From Rhabdothermincola salaria (GTDB lineage Bacteria > Actinomycetota > Acidimicrobiia > Acidimicrobiales > Acidimicrobilacustridaceae), in assembly GCF_021246445.1 (NCBI RefSeq), contig NZ_JAJQXW010000002.1, forward strand, positions 558,001 to 622,000: a DNA stretch of 64,000 nt, written 5' to 3'. The notes below the pieces were generated by a model. It did not search any database. It was not told where the DNA came from and saw only the letters and a program-made list of their open reading frames with translations. A program made the translations under genes and the position numbers. Of the stretch, positions 57,688 through 64,000 are shown one piece after another (the first letter of the stretch is position 1; each line of letters begins with the position of its first letter).

Positions 57688-58635
57688 TCACCCGGTGGGA
57701 GCGACAAGGCTGTCGGTCGGGGGAGTGACGGTGGTGGGGCGGTGGCCCTCGGGCGGCTCGAGCGGGTGGGCGGTGAGCCCCAGGTGGAAGCGCAGCACGG
57801 CCACCCACACCACGATGCTGCCCACGATGTGCAGGGCCACGACGAGCGGCGGGACGCCCCCGAAGTACTGCACGTAGCCGATCGCCCCCTGCACCACGAT
57901 GGCGCCGACCAGCACCTTGGCCCGACGGTCGACCCCGAGCGGCGCGCCGCTGCGGTGCAGCTCCCACAAGGTCCACAGCGCGAGAGCCAGGAACGCCCAC
58001 ACCAGCAGCGAGTGGATGCGGGCCACCTCCATGAGGTCGAAGGGCAGGCGCTCGACGGTCTCGTCGCCGCCGTGGGGACCGGTGCCGGTGACGATGGTGC
58101 CCGACACCAGCACCACGGCGGCAGCCGCCACCAGCGTCCGCCCGAGCATGCGGACGCGCCGCGGGACGAGCGGGAGGCCCTTGGAACCGTCGTGGCCGGC
58201 CCGCTCGTGCAGCACCACCGCGTTCCACATGAGCACCATCGACAGCAGGAAGTGGCCGATGACGAACGGCGGCGAGAGGTGGAACAGCACCGTGAGGCCA
58301 CCGAGCACGATCTGGGCGAGCACCCCGGCCACCAGGCCCAGCGACCACCAGGTCAGGTCCCGGCGGCGCGGGGTGCGCAGCAGCGAGCCGAGCACGGCGA
58401 GGGCCACCGCCGCCGACACCAGGCCGGTGATGAGCCTGTTCACGAACTCCACGAGGGCGTGGTACTCGAGCGGGGCGACGAACTGCGTCTCCTCGCACTT
58501 GGGCCACGTGGAGCAGCCGAGGCCCGAGCCCGTCAGGCGCACACCCGCGCCGGTGACGATGATGAAGGCCAGAGCCAGCGCCGCCAGCAGGGTGATGCGC
58601 TGGTAGGCCCGGGGGGAGAGACGCGGCAGGCGCAC
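57688..58635 (-). CDS. ctaA: Heme A synthase
   Basis: 315 residues, eight membrane helices. [26 protein letters not shown] has the cysteine pair and basic heme-edge segment of CtaA/COX15; [35 protein letters not shown] and [11 protein letters not shown] carry the four heme histidines. It converts heme O to heme A. The GTG at 58635 follows a TACCAT box by seven bases. ctaB is divergent, 111 bases away. Confidence 0.93.
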
Positions 58636-58642
58636 GCCCGAG

Positions 58643-58648
58643 ATGGTA
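58643..58648 (-). promoter_or_regulatory. Putative -10 box, ctaA
   Basis: TACCAT on the minus strand, seven bases before the ctaA GTG. Confidence 0.5.
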
Positions 58649-58731
58649 CGGGAGGGCCCCTGGGGCTCCCCAATCAGGCCGGGCTCACCTCGCCGCGCCG
58701 CCGCGATTGTCGGCCCGAGAGGGGGGCGACC

Positions 58732-58737
58732 TACCAT
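58732..58737 (+). promoter_or_regulatory. Putative -10 box, ctaB
   Basis: TACCAT nine bases before the ctaB ATG. The identical hexamer serves divergent ctaA. Confidence 0.45.
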
Positions 58738-58746
58738 CGGTGTGCG

Positions 58747-59643
58747 ATGAAGACTGCGGCGCGAGCCTCATTCCGTACGCGTCTGCAGGGCTATGTGGCG
58801 CTCACCAAGCCCCGCATCATCGAACTGCTCCTCATCACCACCGTCCCCACCATGATCGTGGCCGAGGAGGGGCTCCCGTCGGTGTGGCTGATGGCGGCCA
58901 CCGTCATCGGCGGCACCTTCTCCGCCGGCGGGGCCAACGCCATCAACATGTACGTCGACCGCGACATCGACGCGTTGATGAAGCGCACCGCGAAGCGCCC
59001 CCTCGTCACCGGGGTGCTCACCCCCCGGGCCGCCCTCACCTTCGCCGTCGGGCTCGAGGTGGTCGCCTTCGCCTGGCTCTGGCTGTTCGTGAACCTGCTG
59101 AGCGCGGTGCTGGCCGTGGCCGCCTGCCTGTTCTACGTGTTCGTCTACACGCTCTGGCTCAAGCGCCGCTCGACCAGCAACATCGTCATCGGCGGCGCCG
59201 CCGGCGCGGCACCGGTGCTCATCGGGTGGTCCGCCGTCACCGACTCGCTGGCGTGGCCCCCCGTGGTGCTGTTCGCCATCATCTTCTTCTGGACCCCGCC
59301 GCACTTCTGGGCCCTCGCCATCCGCTACAAGGACGACTACTCCGCCGCGGACGTGCCCATGCTGCCGTCGGTCGCCACCTTCCGGGACACCTCGATCCAG
59401 ATCCTGGCCTACACGGTGCTCGTCTGGGCCCTGACGCTCGTCTTCGCGCCCGTCGCCGGCGTGGGGTGGATCTACGTCGTGTCCGCCGTCGTGCTCGGTG
59501 CGGTGTTCACCGCCCTCGCCGTGCAGCTGCTGCGCACCGGCTCGAGCGCGGTCGCCATGCGCCTGTTCACCTTCTCCATCACCTACGTGACCTTGCTGTT
59601 CGGGGCCATGGCCCTCGACGTGCTGGTTCGCAACGGCCTGTGA
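58747..59643 (+). CDS. ctaB: Protoheme IX farnesyltransferase
   Basis: 298 residues, UbiA-superfamily with about nine helices. ANAINMYVDRDIDALMKRTAKRPL is the first Asp-rich motif; IFFWTPPHFWALAIRYKDDYSAADVPMLP the CtaB-specific second region. It converts heme B to heme O for cytochrome oxidase. It is divergent from ctaA and upstream of the oxidase cluster, so heme A should be made together with the oxidase. Confidence 0.95.
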   Translation: MKTAARASFRTRLQGYVALTKPRIIELLLITTVPTMIVAEEGLPSVWLMAATVIGGTFSAGGANAINMYVDRDIDALMKRTAKRPLVTGVLTPRAALTFAVGLEVVAFAWLWLFVNLLSAVLAVAACLFYVFVYTLWLKRRSTSNIVIGGAAGAAPVLIGWSAVTDSLAWPPVVLFAIIFFWTPPHFWALAIRYKDDYSAADVPMLPSVATFRDTSIQILAYTVLVWALTLVFAPVAGVGWIYVVSAVVLGAVFTALAVQLLRTGSSAVAMRLFTFSITYVTLLFGAMALDVLVRNGL

Positions 59644-59791: not shown

Positions 59792-61351
59792 ATGGCCATA
59801 ACCGACACGAGACCCGAGGTCGCACCCGAGGCGGAAGCGTCGGCGATCACGACATCGCCGAACACGGTGTTCGGCACCGGCGACCACACGACCCTCGGGC
59901 GCATGTGGATCGGTGCCGCCCTCCTGCTCGGCATCGCCGGCTGGGTCCTCACCGCCCTCGTCGGCGTCCACGAGATCGGCGACGCCGACGTGTTCAGCGC
60001 GGATGCCGCCTTCACCATGTTCACCCTCGGCCGCGTCGGCCTGGTGCTGCTGGTCGTCGTGCCCCTCCTGCTCGGCATCGCCACCCTGGTGGTCCCGCTG
60101 CAGGTCGGCGCCAACACCCTCGCCTTCCCCCGAGCCGCAGCCATGGCCTTCTGGACCTGGCTGATCTCGGCCGGCGTCCTCGTCGTGGCCAACACCATCG
60201 ACGGCGGCTTCGGCGGGGGGCGCATCGAAGCCAACGACATGATGCTCGCCTCGCTGCTGGGCCTCGTCTTCGCCTTGATGGTCGCCACCATCTGCCTGCT
60301 CACCACCGCCATCACGCTGCGCACCCCCGGCATGAGCCTCGACCGGGTCCCCGCCACCACCTGGGCCACCCTCGTCGGTGGATCGCTCTGGCTGCTCACC
60401 CTCCCGGTGCTGGCCGCCAACGTGCTGCTCATCTACATCGACCACCGCTACGGCGGGCCCAGCGAGTTCGGCCTCGCCGACAACCAGTGGGCCCAGGTCT
60501 CCTGGCTCGTCGGCCAGCCCCAGATCTACGCCTTCGTCATCCCCGTGCTCGGCATGACCACCGACGTGTTCACCACGCTCGGCGGCGTCCGCCAGGCCAA
60601 CCGGGGCTTCGTGCTCTTCGGCATCGGTGCCTTCGGGGCGCTCAGCTTCGGCGCCTACGCCCAGCCGTTCTTCTACCCGGACGTCGCCGACCAGGCCCTC
60701 TGGGCCGGCATGTCGCTGCTGATCGTGCTGCCCACCCTGTTGCTGGTGGGTGGCTGGGCCGCCACCCTCAAGGGCGCCCGTCCCCCCGCCAAGGCCGCGG
60801 TGGGCGCCGCCGGCGTGGCCGTGCTGTTGCTCCTCCTCGCCGTGGTGGCCGGGGCCCTCTACGTCATCACCCCGCTCGAGCTGCGCCAGTCCGGCGCCTT
60901 CTCCGCCGGCCACTTCGCCCTCGTCGTGGCGGCCGGCCTGGCCGGCGGCATGGCCGGCATCTACTACTGGTCGCCCAAGCTCCGCGGGCGCTTCGCCAAC
61001 GAGGCGCTGGCCAAGCTGTCGGTCCTCGCCGTGCTCGGCGGCGGCGCCCTCGCCGGCCTGCCCTTGCTGGTACTCGGCTTCGCCAACCGCTTCGACGGCC
61101 TGGCCGACGCCTCCGACGCCCTCAACGGCATCGCCGTTGCCGGCGCCGCCCTCATGGCCCTGGCCCTGCTCGCCACCATCGGCGCCCTGCTCACCGCATC
61201 CGGCGACACCCCCGCCGACGATGCCTGGGGCACCGGCCAGACCCTCGAGTGGGCCACCGCCTCACCCCCCGTGCCCGGCAACTTCGGTGAGCTGGCCGTC
61301 GTCCGATCCTCCGAGCCGCTGCTCGACGCGCCCGAGACCCAGGAGGCCTGA
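59792..61351 (+). CDS. Degenerate cytochrome oxidase subunit I homologue lacking most metal ligands
   Basis: 519 residues, about 12 membrane helices. CoxI landmarks are clear: LVVPLQVGANTLAFPR, ITLRTPGMSLDRVP, LPVLAANVLLIYIDHRYGG and a C-terminal GQTLEWATASPPVPGNF. Yet canonical ligands are missing: the helix-2 heme a His site reads TLGRVG (about 78-83); HPEVY reads QPQIY (242-246, Tyr kept, CuB His lost); the HH pair reads AYAQ (288-291); and HFHY reads HFAL (374-377), keeping only the presumed a3 His. It cannot be a normal oxygen-reducing subunit. The reading frame is intact with good codon use, so it is not a decaying pseudogene. The next gene starts three bases on. Confidence 0.85.
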   Translation: MAITDTRPEVAPEAEASAITTSPNTVFGTGDHTTLGRMWIGAALLLGIAGWVLTALVGVHEIGDADVFSADAAFTMFTLGRVGLVLLVVVPLLLGIATLVVPLQVGANTLAFPRAAAMAFWTWLISAGVLVVANTIDGGFGGGRIEANDMMLASLLGLVFALMVATICLLTTAITLRTPGMSLDRVPATTWATLVGGSLWLLTLPVLAANVLLIYIDHRYGGPSEFGLADNQWAQVSWLVGQPQIYAFVIPVLGMTTDVFTTLGGVRQANRGFVLFGIGAFGALSFGAYAQPFFYPDVADQALWAGMSLLIVLPTLLLVGGWAATLKGARPPAKAAVGAAGVAVLLLLLAVVAGALYVITPLELRQSGAFSAGHFALVVAAGLAGGMAGIYYWSPKLRGRFANEALAKLSVLAVLGGGALAGLPLLVLGFANRFDGLADASDALNGIAVAGAALMALALLATIGALLTASGDTPADDAWGTGQTLEWATASPPVPGNFGELAVVRSSEPLLDAPETQEA

Positions 61352-61353
61352 GC

Positions 61354-61950
61354 ATGGAAGCCGCCACCCACGCCCTTCCCCCGGCCCCGCCCCTGCAGCG
61401 GCCCCGGGTGCTGATGGTGGGCACCGCCTTCGCCTCGGCCGCCGCCATCATGGTGCTGCTGGGGATGCTCGGCGTCTACCTCACCCAGCGCGGCGCCGTG
61501 CTGGCCGCCGGCGACACCTGGCTCCCCGACGGCGTCACCATCCCGCTGAGCCAGCCCAACATCATGCTGTCCACCCTGCTCATGGGGTCGGTGGCGGTGC
61601 AGTGGGCGGTCTACGCCATCGCCCGCGACGACCGGATCAACGCCTACATGGCGCTCGGCCTCACCATGCTCTTCGGGTTCATGGTCATCGTGATGACCAC
61701 CTACCTCTACAGCATCATGGAGCTCGAGATCGCCGCCAGCCCCCAGGGCGTGCTGCTCTACGCCATCACCGGCGGCCACCTGGCGTTCCTCATCGGCACC
61801 ATGGTCTTCCTGGCGCTGATGTCCTTCCGGGCCCTGGCCGGCCAGTACACCAGCCGCCAGCACGACGGCGTGTCCGCCGCCGCCCTGGCCTGGCACGCAC
61901 AGGTCGCCATCTTCTTCGTCATCTGGCTCGCCATCTACATCACCAAGTAG
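61354..61950 (+). CDS. Cytochrome oxidase subunit III-like membrane protein
   Basis: 198 residues with five predicted helices, the length and shape of CtaE/CyoC. The terminal helix reads ALAWHAQVAIFFVIWLAIYITK, reminiscent of the YWHFVDxVW helix of subunit III, and GGHLAFLIGTMVFL resembles the GxHxxHV helix with one His lost. Homology is moderate. It begins three bases after the degenerate subunit I and is presumably in complex with it. Confidence 0.75.
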   Translation: MEAATHALPPAPPLQRPRVLMVGTAFASAAAIMVLLGMLGVYLTQRGAVLAAGDTWLPDGVTIPLSQPNIMLSTLLMGSVAVQWAVYAIARDDRINAYMALGLTMLFGFMVIVMTTYLYSIMELEIAASPQGVLLYAITGGHLAFLIGTMVFLALMSFRALAGQYTSRQHDGVSAAALAWHAQVAIFFVIWLAIYITK

Positions 61951-61957
61951 GCCACTG

Positions 61958-62812
61958 ATGCTCCGATCCCGCGCCTTCACCCCTGCCTTCCGGTTCTTCG
62001 CCGGCCTGGCGGTCTTCTCGCTGGTCGCCGCCTTCGTGGTCGGCTTCTCCAGCGAGGCCCAAGCCCCCATCGACCGGGTGCTCGGCCCGCTCACCATGGG
62101 CTGGAAGGGCGGCGTCGGCAACCACGTCGCCTACACCCTCTTCGTCGGCCTGTTCGGGGTCTCCGCCGGGCTCGCCGGCATCCTCGTGGCCTTCCGCGAC
62201 GCCGACCCCGAGGCCGACGCCGAAGTCTTGAGGGCCGAGAGCGTGCCCCTCACCCGGGCTCCGGCCGGCATGAACTACCTCCCGGCCATCGCCGCGGTCG
62301 CCGTCGTCGTGGCGCTCATCGGCACCAGCACGGCCAACACCGGCCTGGCCCTGGCCGCCGTCGCCACCCTCGTGGCCGTCGGCCTCACCTGGATGCTGCG
62401 GGCCTGGGCCGAGCGGGCCACCGGCGACGACACCACCAACGCCGAGCTCTACCACCGCTTCATCGACCCGCTGCGCCTCCCGATCGTGTCCGTCGTCGCC
62501 ATCGCCATCGTCGTGCTCGGCGTCTCCCGGGTGCTGCTGGCGGTCTCCAAGACCGGCTCGGTGATCGTGTTCTCGGTCATCGCCACCGTGATCTTCGGCA
62601 TCACCATCCTGCTCGCTCTCGTGCCGAAGTCGGGCCGCTACGTGGTCACCGGCCTCGTGGTTGCCGGAGCGCTGCTGGTCATCGCCGGGGGTGTCATCGG
62701 AGCCGTCGCCGGAGAGCGCGACTTCGAGCACCACGGCGGCGAGCACGGCGCCGAGGAGACCGGCGGCGCCACCGAATCCGGCTTGGCTCCGCTGGTGGTC
62801 GGCCCCTCATGA
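61958..62812 (+). CDS. Unrecognised polytopic membrane protein in the oxidase cluster
   Basis: 284 residues with about eight hydrophobic helices (for example FFAGLAVFSLVAAFVVGF, VAYTLFVGLFGVSAGLAGILVAF, IVSVVAIAIVVLGVSRVLLAV). The C-terminus ends in a His/Glu-rich segment (FEHHGGEHGAEETGG) that might bind metal or face the outside. I do not recognise the family. Its tight placement after the subunit III-like gene (seven bases) and before ctaC suggests an oxidase-specific subunit or assembly factor. Confidence 0.8.
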   Translation: MLRSRAFTPAFRFFAGLAVFSLVAAFVVGFSSEAQAPIDRVLGPLTMGWKGGVGNHVAYTLFVGLFGVSAGLAGILVAFRDADPEADAEVLRAESVPLTRAPAGMNYLPAIAAVAVVVALIGTSTANTGLALAAVATLVAVGLTWMLRAWAERATGDDTTNAELYHRFIDPLRLPIVSVVAIAIVVLGVSRVLLAVSKTGSVIVFSVIATVIFGITILLALVPKSGRYVVTGLVVAGALLVIAGGVIGAVAGERDFEHHGGEHGAEETGGATESGLAPLVVGPS

Positions 62813-62994: not shown

Positions 62995-64000
62995 ATGCCC
63001 CGCCGTTCCGTCCTCGTCCGGATCCTGCAGGTCGTGACCCTCGTGGTCGTGACCGTGCTCTTCGTGGTGCTGATCATCGACAGCTTCCTCAACGATGGCA
63101 AGCCGCTCACCACGCTGCGCCCGGAGGGACCGGCCGCCCAGGACATCCAGAACCTGGTGTGGCCCGTCTTCCTCGTGGCCGGCATCGTGTTCGTCGGGGT
63201 CTTCGGGGCGATCGGCTTCATCATCATGAAGTTCCGCCAGCGCGACGACGACGATCCCGAGCAGTTCCCCGAGCAGGTCCACGGGCGCACCGGCCTCGAG
63301 ATCGGCTGGACCATCCTCCCGGCCCTCATCCTCGCCGGCGTGGCCGTGGGCACGGTCATCACCATCATCAACCTCGACAAGCGCGCCGACGACGCCATCC
63401 CGGTCAAGGTCGTCGGCCAGCAGTTCTGGTGGAGCTTCCACTACGACCTGAACAACGACGGCAACTTCGAGGGCCCCGAGGACCTCACCACCGCCGGTGA
63501 GCTGGTGGTGCCCGTCGGCCGCGAGATCGAGATCGTCACCACCTCCAACGACGTCATCCACTCGTTCTGGATCCCGGGCCTCAACGGCAAGAAGGACGCC
63601 GTGCCCAACCTCTTGAACCCCATCAAGCTCGAGGCCGACGTCGAAGGCGTCTTCCTGGGCCAGTGCACCGAGTTCTGCGGTCTGTCGCACGCCAACATGC
63701 GGATGCTGGTGCGCTCGGTGTCCCAGGACACCTACGACGCCTGGCTCGAGAACCAGCTCACCGACAAGTCGGCGGAGCCGACCGATCCCGACGCTGCCGA
63801 GGGGCGTGAGATCTTCACCCAGCAGTGCGCCGCCTGCCACCTCGTCGACGGGGTCAGCGATCCCGAGGACGTGCCCTTGGTGGCGGGTGTGGCGCCCGAC
63901 CTCACCCACCTCATGACCCGAGGCACCTTCGCCGGGTCGATCTTCAACCTCTACGCCCCCGACGGTGAGCCCATCGGCGGCAACCCCGAAGAGGTGGCCA
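62995..64000 (+). CDS. ctaC: Cytochrome oxidase subunit II with fused cytochrome c (truncated by window)
   Basis: At least 335 residues; the C-terminus is beyond the window. Two N-terminal membrane helices are followed by a cupredoxin domain with a complete CuA site: His codon at 63559 (HSFWIPG), then C-x3-C-x3-H-x2-M in GQCTEFCGLSHANMRM (Cys 63664 and 63676, His 63688, Met 63697). A heme c motif CAACH at 63826-63840 begins a fused cytochrome c domain, as in caa3 oxidases. It can accept electrons normally, unlike the subunit I homologue upstream, so a canonical ctaD probably lies downstream. Confidence 0.93.
   Translation, partial: MPRRSVLVRILQVVTLVVVTVLFVVLIIDSFLNDGKPLTTLRPEGPAAQDIQNLVWPVFLVAGIVFVGVFGAIGFIIMKFRQRDDDDPEQFPEQVHGRTGLEIGWTILPALILAGVAVGTVITIINLDKRADDAIPVKVVGQQFWWSFHYDLNNDGNFEGPEDLTTAGELVVPVGREIEIVTTSNDVIHSFWIPGLNGKKDAVPNLLNPIKLEADVEGVFLGQCTEFCGLSHANMRMLVRSVSQDTYDAWLENQLTDKSAEPTDPDAAEGREIFTQQCAACHLVDGVSDPEDVPLVAGVAPDLTHLMTRGTFAGSIFNLYAPDGEPIGGNPEEVA

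Follow-up and report, generated by a model that had tools for sequence, protein, structure and literature searches.

The window analysed here, a stretch of 64,000 nucleotides from Rhabdothermincola salaria, contains an intact open reading frame of 519 amino acids (59792..61351, plus strand) encoding a homologue of cytochrome oxidase subunit I (CoxI) without conserved metal ligands, in the following termed D*. Together with the two downstream genes, E* and X, D* forms one unit, a point missed by a preliminary description of this DNA. As far as can be read from the sequences, the ligand loss, the predicted fold, the conservation, the purifying selection, the gene order, the make-up of X and the existence of graded forms could be documented, and from this we infer that D*-E*-X assembles with the real oxidase and has a scaffold role. 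The best explanation, to which we give about an even chance, is that D*-E*-X is a pseudo-oxidase core derived from an ancient second oxidase, which lost its redox sites stepwise and was kept as a structural partner of the caa3 oxidase.

Organization of the oxidase locus

The cluster comprises, in this order, ctaA on the opposite strand, ctaB, D*, E*, X, ctaC, ctaD and ctaE. The divergent ctaA (57688..58737, minus strand) encodes heme A synthase (COX15-CtaA; PF02628, E 2.6e-20) and ctaB (58747..59643, plus strand) heme O synthase of the UbiA family (PF01040, E 5.4e-64). D* is followed after only 2 nt by E* (61354..61950, plus strand), a degenerate subunit III (COX3) homologue of 198 amino acids, and after another 7 nt by X (61958..62812, plus strand), a protein of 284 amino acids with predicted membrane helices, which was assigned by profile comparison. 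The gaps on both sides of these three genes are 148 nt (ctaB-D*) and 182 nt (X-ctaC). E* scored above the cut-off of the Pfam COX3 profile PF00510 (E 2.4e-14) and under the NCBIfam cut-offs for subunit III. The subsequent ctaC, encoding subunit II with a CuA domain and a fused cytochrome c, starts at 62995 on the plus strand, reaches the window end at 64000 and continues to 64200. Accordingly, a cluster with a subunit III-like protein and subunit II, as described before, is present, while the membrane protein regarded there as unknown can now be explained (see below).

The preliminary description also proposed to look for a canonical ctaD beyond position 64000. This gene was found past the window end at 64270-66309 (window numbering), directly after ctaC, and is followed by ctaE at 66302-66934 (window numbering). 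All ligands are present in the encoded CtaD, and the two COX1 matches of the genome are D* and this canonical CtaD. The C-terminal extension of CtaD (L003:10270-12309; residues 587-631) matches the end of the subunit IV family PF12270.

Since D* is located between the genes of heme a synthesis (ctaA, ctaB) and the structural genes, it could, together with E* and X, also act as an assembly factor, i.e. as a subunit I decoy that binds CtaC, CtaE or heme a while the real oxidase is being built and then leaves. The heme a ligands kept in the early-branching forms described below would fit this idea as well. However, homologues of SURF1 and Caa3_CtaG already exist in the genome, and partners resembling subunits III and IV would be unneeded for such a task. 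An assembly decoy is the main rival to the reading as a structural half, and we consider it rather unlikely. A replacement of the known assembly factors by D* is not supported, since both homologues are present.

Ligand sites and fold of D*

The ligand positions of D* were read from alignments with CtaD of M. smegmatis (E 1.7e-41, residues 28-512 aligned) and with CtaD of the own genome, and their roles are taken by us to be those of canonical CoxI. In agreement with the preliminary description, other residues stand in for five of the six metal-ligand histidines in both alignments. The helix-II heme a histidine corresponds to Gly80 (60029-60031), the histidine of HPEVY to Gln242 (60515-60517) and the second histidine of HFHY to Ala376 (60917-60919), all codons lying on the plus strand. 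Both histidines of the HH pair are gone, as stated before, but the replacement is Gln291-Pro292 (60662-60667) and not the one given there. His374 (60911-60913) aligns with the heme a3 histidine. At this position, D* of another species of the genus (L005) carries a Met, the residue varies elsewhere, and a His was determined in only 10 of the 132 distinct relatives. Since this sixth histidine is not conserved, in effect all six ligands are lost. The histidine reported before as remaining is thus present in the window's D*, but is no conserved remnant. At the Tyr position of HPEVY, 120 of the 132 distinct D* have a Tyr or a Phe.

Not only the ligands, but also the channel residues are missing. 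Compared to the own CtaD, the D-channel Asp is Thr109 and the K-channel Lys is Leu318, and among the 132 distinct D* neither Asp nor Lys belongs to the commonest residues at these positions. Of the 73 distinct neighbouring CtaD, 72 have RR as the heme-propionate Arg pair, as opposed to 1 of 132 distinct D*. Histidines that are shifted but equivalent were excluded, since the whole protein comprises only four (positions 32, 60, 218 and 374). It is assumed from these sequence data that the window's D* contains no heme.

A heme or another cofactor that is bound via other residues and still passes electrons would be conceivable from the conservation of the HPEVY Tyr/Phe and from the early forms, in which both heme a histidines occur together with a type-1 copper domain on X. 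This appears improbable, since only one of the four histidines of the window's D* is near the former heme site and is itself not conserved, and since the propionate RR is nearly absent from D* and also missing in the early forms that were examined. For the same reason, namely the lack of conservation of the remaining histidine, the earlier suggestion of a heme-poor electron module is not supported for the window's D*.

Gln takes the place of the second CuB histidine in 106 of the 132 distinct D* and that of the first in 78, so that the empty site appears to have gained a conserved polar group. This would be in line with an independent membrane complex that has taken on a new function outside redox chemistry, such as the passage of protons, water or a small molecule through the emptied core. 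Against this stands the loss of both channel residues as well as the connection of the unit to one oxidase type, as three relatives in which only another type was found (G027, G032, G039) showed no D*. We judge such a complex to be improbable too, if slightly less so than the hidden cofactor; both a separate transport role and a hidden cofactor are less likely than the structural reading.

D* is predicted to retain the CoxI fold over its whole length. Pfam COX1 matched residues 35-432 with an E of 1.1e-39, while each of the five NCBIfam subunit I models matched by D* has a cut-off far above the score reached (best score 179.9 bits compared to a cut-off of 670.75). The AlphaFold model, based on an alignment of 23 sequences, reached a pLDDT of 86.6 and a pTM of 0.90. 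Among the Foldseek and VIA-align matches listed for this model, all were oxidase subunit I chains, with a Z of 39.5 and an rmsd of 3.1 over 485 residues for 6adq_F in VIA-align. Altogether, AlphaFold, Foldseek, VIA and Pfam COX1 point to the twelve-helix fold of subunit I. The invariant residues of D* include canonical CoxI motifs, e.g. the C-terminal LEW..(A)..SPP region.

Composition of X

The window's X matched no Pfam family. Among 38 relatives of X, the subunit IV family PF12270 was the most frequent one (6 of 38, best E 1.6e-4), and a comparison of X with ten CtaF proteins by hhalign gave a probability of 96.6% and an E of 6.5e-10 over CtaF columns 2-133 of 139. Judged by sequence, residues ~1-150 of X are subunit IV (CtaF)-like. 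The second half matches the membrane part of a separate gene located near ctaD-ctaE in other classes of the phylum. Of 17 such ORFs, 15 end in one or two cupredoxin domains (determined by eye). Residues ~150-262 of X are therefore, by the same kind of evidence, a homologue of the anchor by which a cupredoxin protein is held in the membrane. In four loci of other classes (L236, L244, L248, L251) the gene for the membrane-anchored cupredoxin near ctaD-ctaE apparently encodes two cupredoxin domains in tandem. The type-1 copper domain itself (His-Cys-His-Met) is absent from the window's X.

In one genome (G441) the two parts are found beside two different oxidases, a CtaF gene (C1:54856-55221) beside one CoxI (C1:55233-56804) and a cupredoxin gene (C1:1133755-1134039) near another (C1:1136105-1137652), which indicates that X joins parts that elsewhere belong to two oxidases.

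Structure comparisons added little. The model of X showed a moderate pTM of 0.48, and VIA yielded no match with a Z of at least 8; the rows were mostly ferritins, with the CtaF chains 7q21_F (6.8) and 8hcr_H (6.6) among them. When the X profile was compared with solved structures, the matches were chance-like only. In family f7, X carries an extra tail of ~120 residues with conserved Cys and without copper ligands at 11 loci (L146, L147, L149, L150, L151, L156, L159, L163, L165, L166, L168). We do not claim this tail as a cupredoxin remnant, as the comparison of ten tails with cupredoxins resulted in a profile probability of 5%.

Distribution, gene order and selection

At E 0.001 all 41 genomes (the own and 40 relatives) matched D*, canonical CtaD matches included. 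From the collection scan the best 80 of 173 loci were used, the class search gave more, and 40 further stretches were taken by place. Repeats (L001, L002, L114-L121, L125, L136) and ORFs below 300 amino acids were dropped before counting. Merging identical cores reduced 158 rows to 132 distinct D* or early forms, 130 of which are readable at the ligand region. Among these 130, none of the six histidines is kept in 93, one in 22, two in 8 and three in 7, and no sequence keeps more than three. A D* row never contained more than one CuB histidine. In comparison, no readable ligand is missing from the 73 distinct neighbouring CtaD. The search of relatives for the same losses, suggested in the preliminary description, thus gave no sign of recent decay.

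The order ctaB-D*-E*-X-ctaC-ctaD was found in 53 of the 56 loci with enough flank. In the first exception (L059), D*-E* is present and X is represented by a short ORF only, and the remainder of the stretch yielded neither ctaC nor ctaD. In the second (L161), ~4.7 kb lie between X and ctaC and ctaD is located past the distance limit of the script, while in the third (L177) E* is too divergent for the threshold. The interval of the early-branching L161 (L161:2357-7053) contains several ORFs.

Using full-length X as a marker, the unit was detected in 95 of 395 genomes of the class, all of them labelled as own, same family or same order. In a search of the phylum with X, 113 of 396 genomes matched, and the matches listed outside the order comprise partial X only, mostly its C-terminal half. 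Among the genomes searched, full-length X is therefore confined to the window's own order. Four contigs titled 'Bifidobacterium breve' (L035, L048, L049, L103) carry a D*-E*-X-ctaCDE arrangement typical of the order, and these titles look mislabelled. Five relatives with a single canonical-type match were examined: in G027, G032 and G039 no D* and only another oxidase type was found, and in the other two the contig ends before the place of D*. A sixth relative in doubt, G028, was found to carry D*-E*-X.

The median dN/dS, calculated from 16 loci, was 0.16 for D* (61 pairs), 0.20 for E* (102) and 0.25 for X (71), compared to 0.094 for CtaD (112), 0.086 for CtaC (53) and 0.061 for CtaE (85); since dS is high in the pairs, these values are rough. 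Based on the mean distances, the rate of evolution of D*, E* and X is two- to threefold that of ctaD and ctaE. This faster rate together with the progressive loss of sites could be taken as a sign of a decaying pseudogene. However, no internal stops occur in the D* matches listed for the relatives, the dN/dS is low, both the location and the motifs have been preserved and the divergence dates far back, so that a pseudogene is highly improbable. Recent decay was ruled out by the dN/dS of D* and by the many relatives with the same losses, and as judged from these sequences D* is maintained by purifying selection. A mirror-tree analysis of 54 loci gave partial correlations of 0.46-0.63, which were alike for all six pairs, D included, and did not single out D*-E*-X.

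Early-branching forms

Six loci from six families (L161, L169, L177, L178, L180, L181) keep both heme a histidines in the D* slot, and five of them also the a3 histidine, while no CuB histidine and neither channel residue is present. In all six, the C-terminus of X is a cupredoxin domain that has the copper ligands (PF13473 in 6 of 6, where the cut-off is exceeded in 5). A seventh early locus (L274), from the same genus as L169, likewise combines the type-1 copper domain on X with a CuB-less D* that has both heme a histidines. In total, 11 of the 132 distinct D* keep both heme a histidines. Six of these have the copper domain on X, two a complete X without it, and in three X is cut or was not found. 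None of the 104 D* with one or no heme a histidine and a complete X has the domain; X is cut by the end of the locus for 18 of the 132. The copper domain was thus found only where D* keeps both heme a histidines. In L275 (G028) both heme a histidines are kept, while the a3 histidine and the copper domain are absent.

In the trees of D* and E*, L161, the clade of L169, L177, L178 and L181, and the L180 branch separate before the rest, in an order that is compatible between the two trees if the root lies on the canonical side. Read from these trees, in which four of the copper-domain loci represent one clade, the simplest order of events would begin with the loss of CuB and the channel residues, continue with that of the copper domain and end with that of the heme ligands, which took place more than once. 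The early-branching form may still be redox-active, even though the presence of heme is not certain there, since the propionate Arg pair is missing in the early forms too.

These forms open a further possibility, namely that the order has a heterodimeric oxidase, in which X connects a live core to a dead one. The half that is dead to oxygen would, in the early families, still be a working electron branch from the type-1 copper on X to a D* with two hemes and no CuB, by which the live half is fed or gated, and in the lineage of the window only a structural or proton-side role would be left. We regard this as possible but doubtful.

Origin of the unit

Without the early forms, D* represents one clade (support 100/100) on a long branch apart from the neighbouring CtaD, and E*, early forms included, one clade (100/98) on a long branch apart from the neighbouring CtaE. 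The trees comprised 84 and 52 rows for CoxI and 43 rows for subunit III. A recent tandem copy of the neighbouring ctaD was rejected as the source of D*, because D* and the early forms fall outside the sampled canonical CoxI on a long branch; the same holds true for E*. Due to the long branches the exact sister of D* is not fixed by the trees.

Outside the order, the profile of the early D* scored best with eleven CoxI loci (L254-L264; 487-526 bits), all of which have the full set of six histidines. Downstream of these CoxI genes, subunit III and a CtaF-like gene follow in four cases and a CtaF-like gene directly in six, and one stretch contains neither. The D-E-F order of the four loci matches D*-E*-X. 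In four loci of other actinobacterial classes (L255, L256, L257, L259) the six histidines are kept and a Leu occupies the K-channel Lys position, and the CoxI of L254 has HPAVY in place of HPEVY. D*-E*-X probably descends from an oxidase set of the D-E-F type that was placed before the caa3 operon and lost its own subunit II, an interpretation kept tentative by the long branches.

Proposed role and significance

The favoured explanation of a pseudo-oxidase core would imply that an ancient second oxidase unit became positioned ahead of the caa3 oxidase operon, was stripped of its redox sites step by step and was maintained by selection. D*-E*-X would then be built into the CtaC-CtaD-CtaE membrane complex as a scaffold or a permanent half without catalytic activity, in which X would link the pseudo-core to the real oxidase. 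A location in the caa3 complex is most likely because X is a fusion of a subunit IV-like part and the anchor of a protein that is encoded in the caa3 operon in other classes. The data call for a role that depends on the fold, on partners III and IV and on the neighbouring caa3 oxidase, and not on a conserved redox site, and a structural half fits this best. Of the interpretations offered in the preliminary description, which are partly supported, a structural or assembly partner is the leading one.

Compared to CtaD/CoxA of the aa3/caa3 type, D* shares the predicted fold over its whole length, the LEW..SPP motif and the position in an oxidase operon, but lacks conserved ligands of heme a, heme a3 and CuB as well as the D- and K-channel residues and the propionate Arg pair. 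E* is homologous to CtaE, but forms a clade of its own. The first half of X is homologous to CtaF (PF12270), from which X differs by its fusion to the anchor of a cupredoxin protein. The second half is homologous to the anchor encoded by the membrane-anchored cupredoxin gene after ctaD-ctaE of other actinobacterial classes, whose copper domain is kept in seven early-branching X and absent in the window's X.

Inactive enzyme homologues that are kept inside a respiratory complex are represented by the core proteins of mitochondrial complex III. In contrast to these, the dead paralogue described here is one of the metal-bearing catalytic subunit itself and is accompanied by dead partners III and IV, and its membership in a complex is putative. 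We know of no other conserved subunit I homologue without conserved metal ligands. In the literature searched, which covered subscription journals and preprints only in small part, none of the papers listed appeared to describe a ligand-less subunit I. While the CoxI fold is known, a conserved subunit I homologue free of metal ligands with its own degenerate partners is apparently new, as far as these sources reach.

For the annotation of genomes, the locus demonstrates that a COX1 match well above the Pfam cut-off does not necessarily indicate a terminal oxidase. Moreover, it offers a natural series from the live oxidase via a CuB-less form with heme ligands and copper domain to the metal-free form. 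This series allows the scaffold role of a heme-copper oxidase to be tested apart from catalysis, and it bears on the question whether oxidases can work as unequal dimers.
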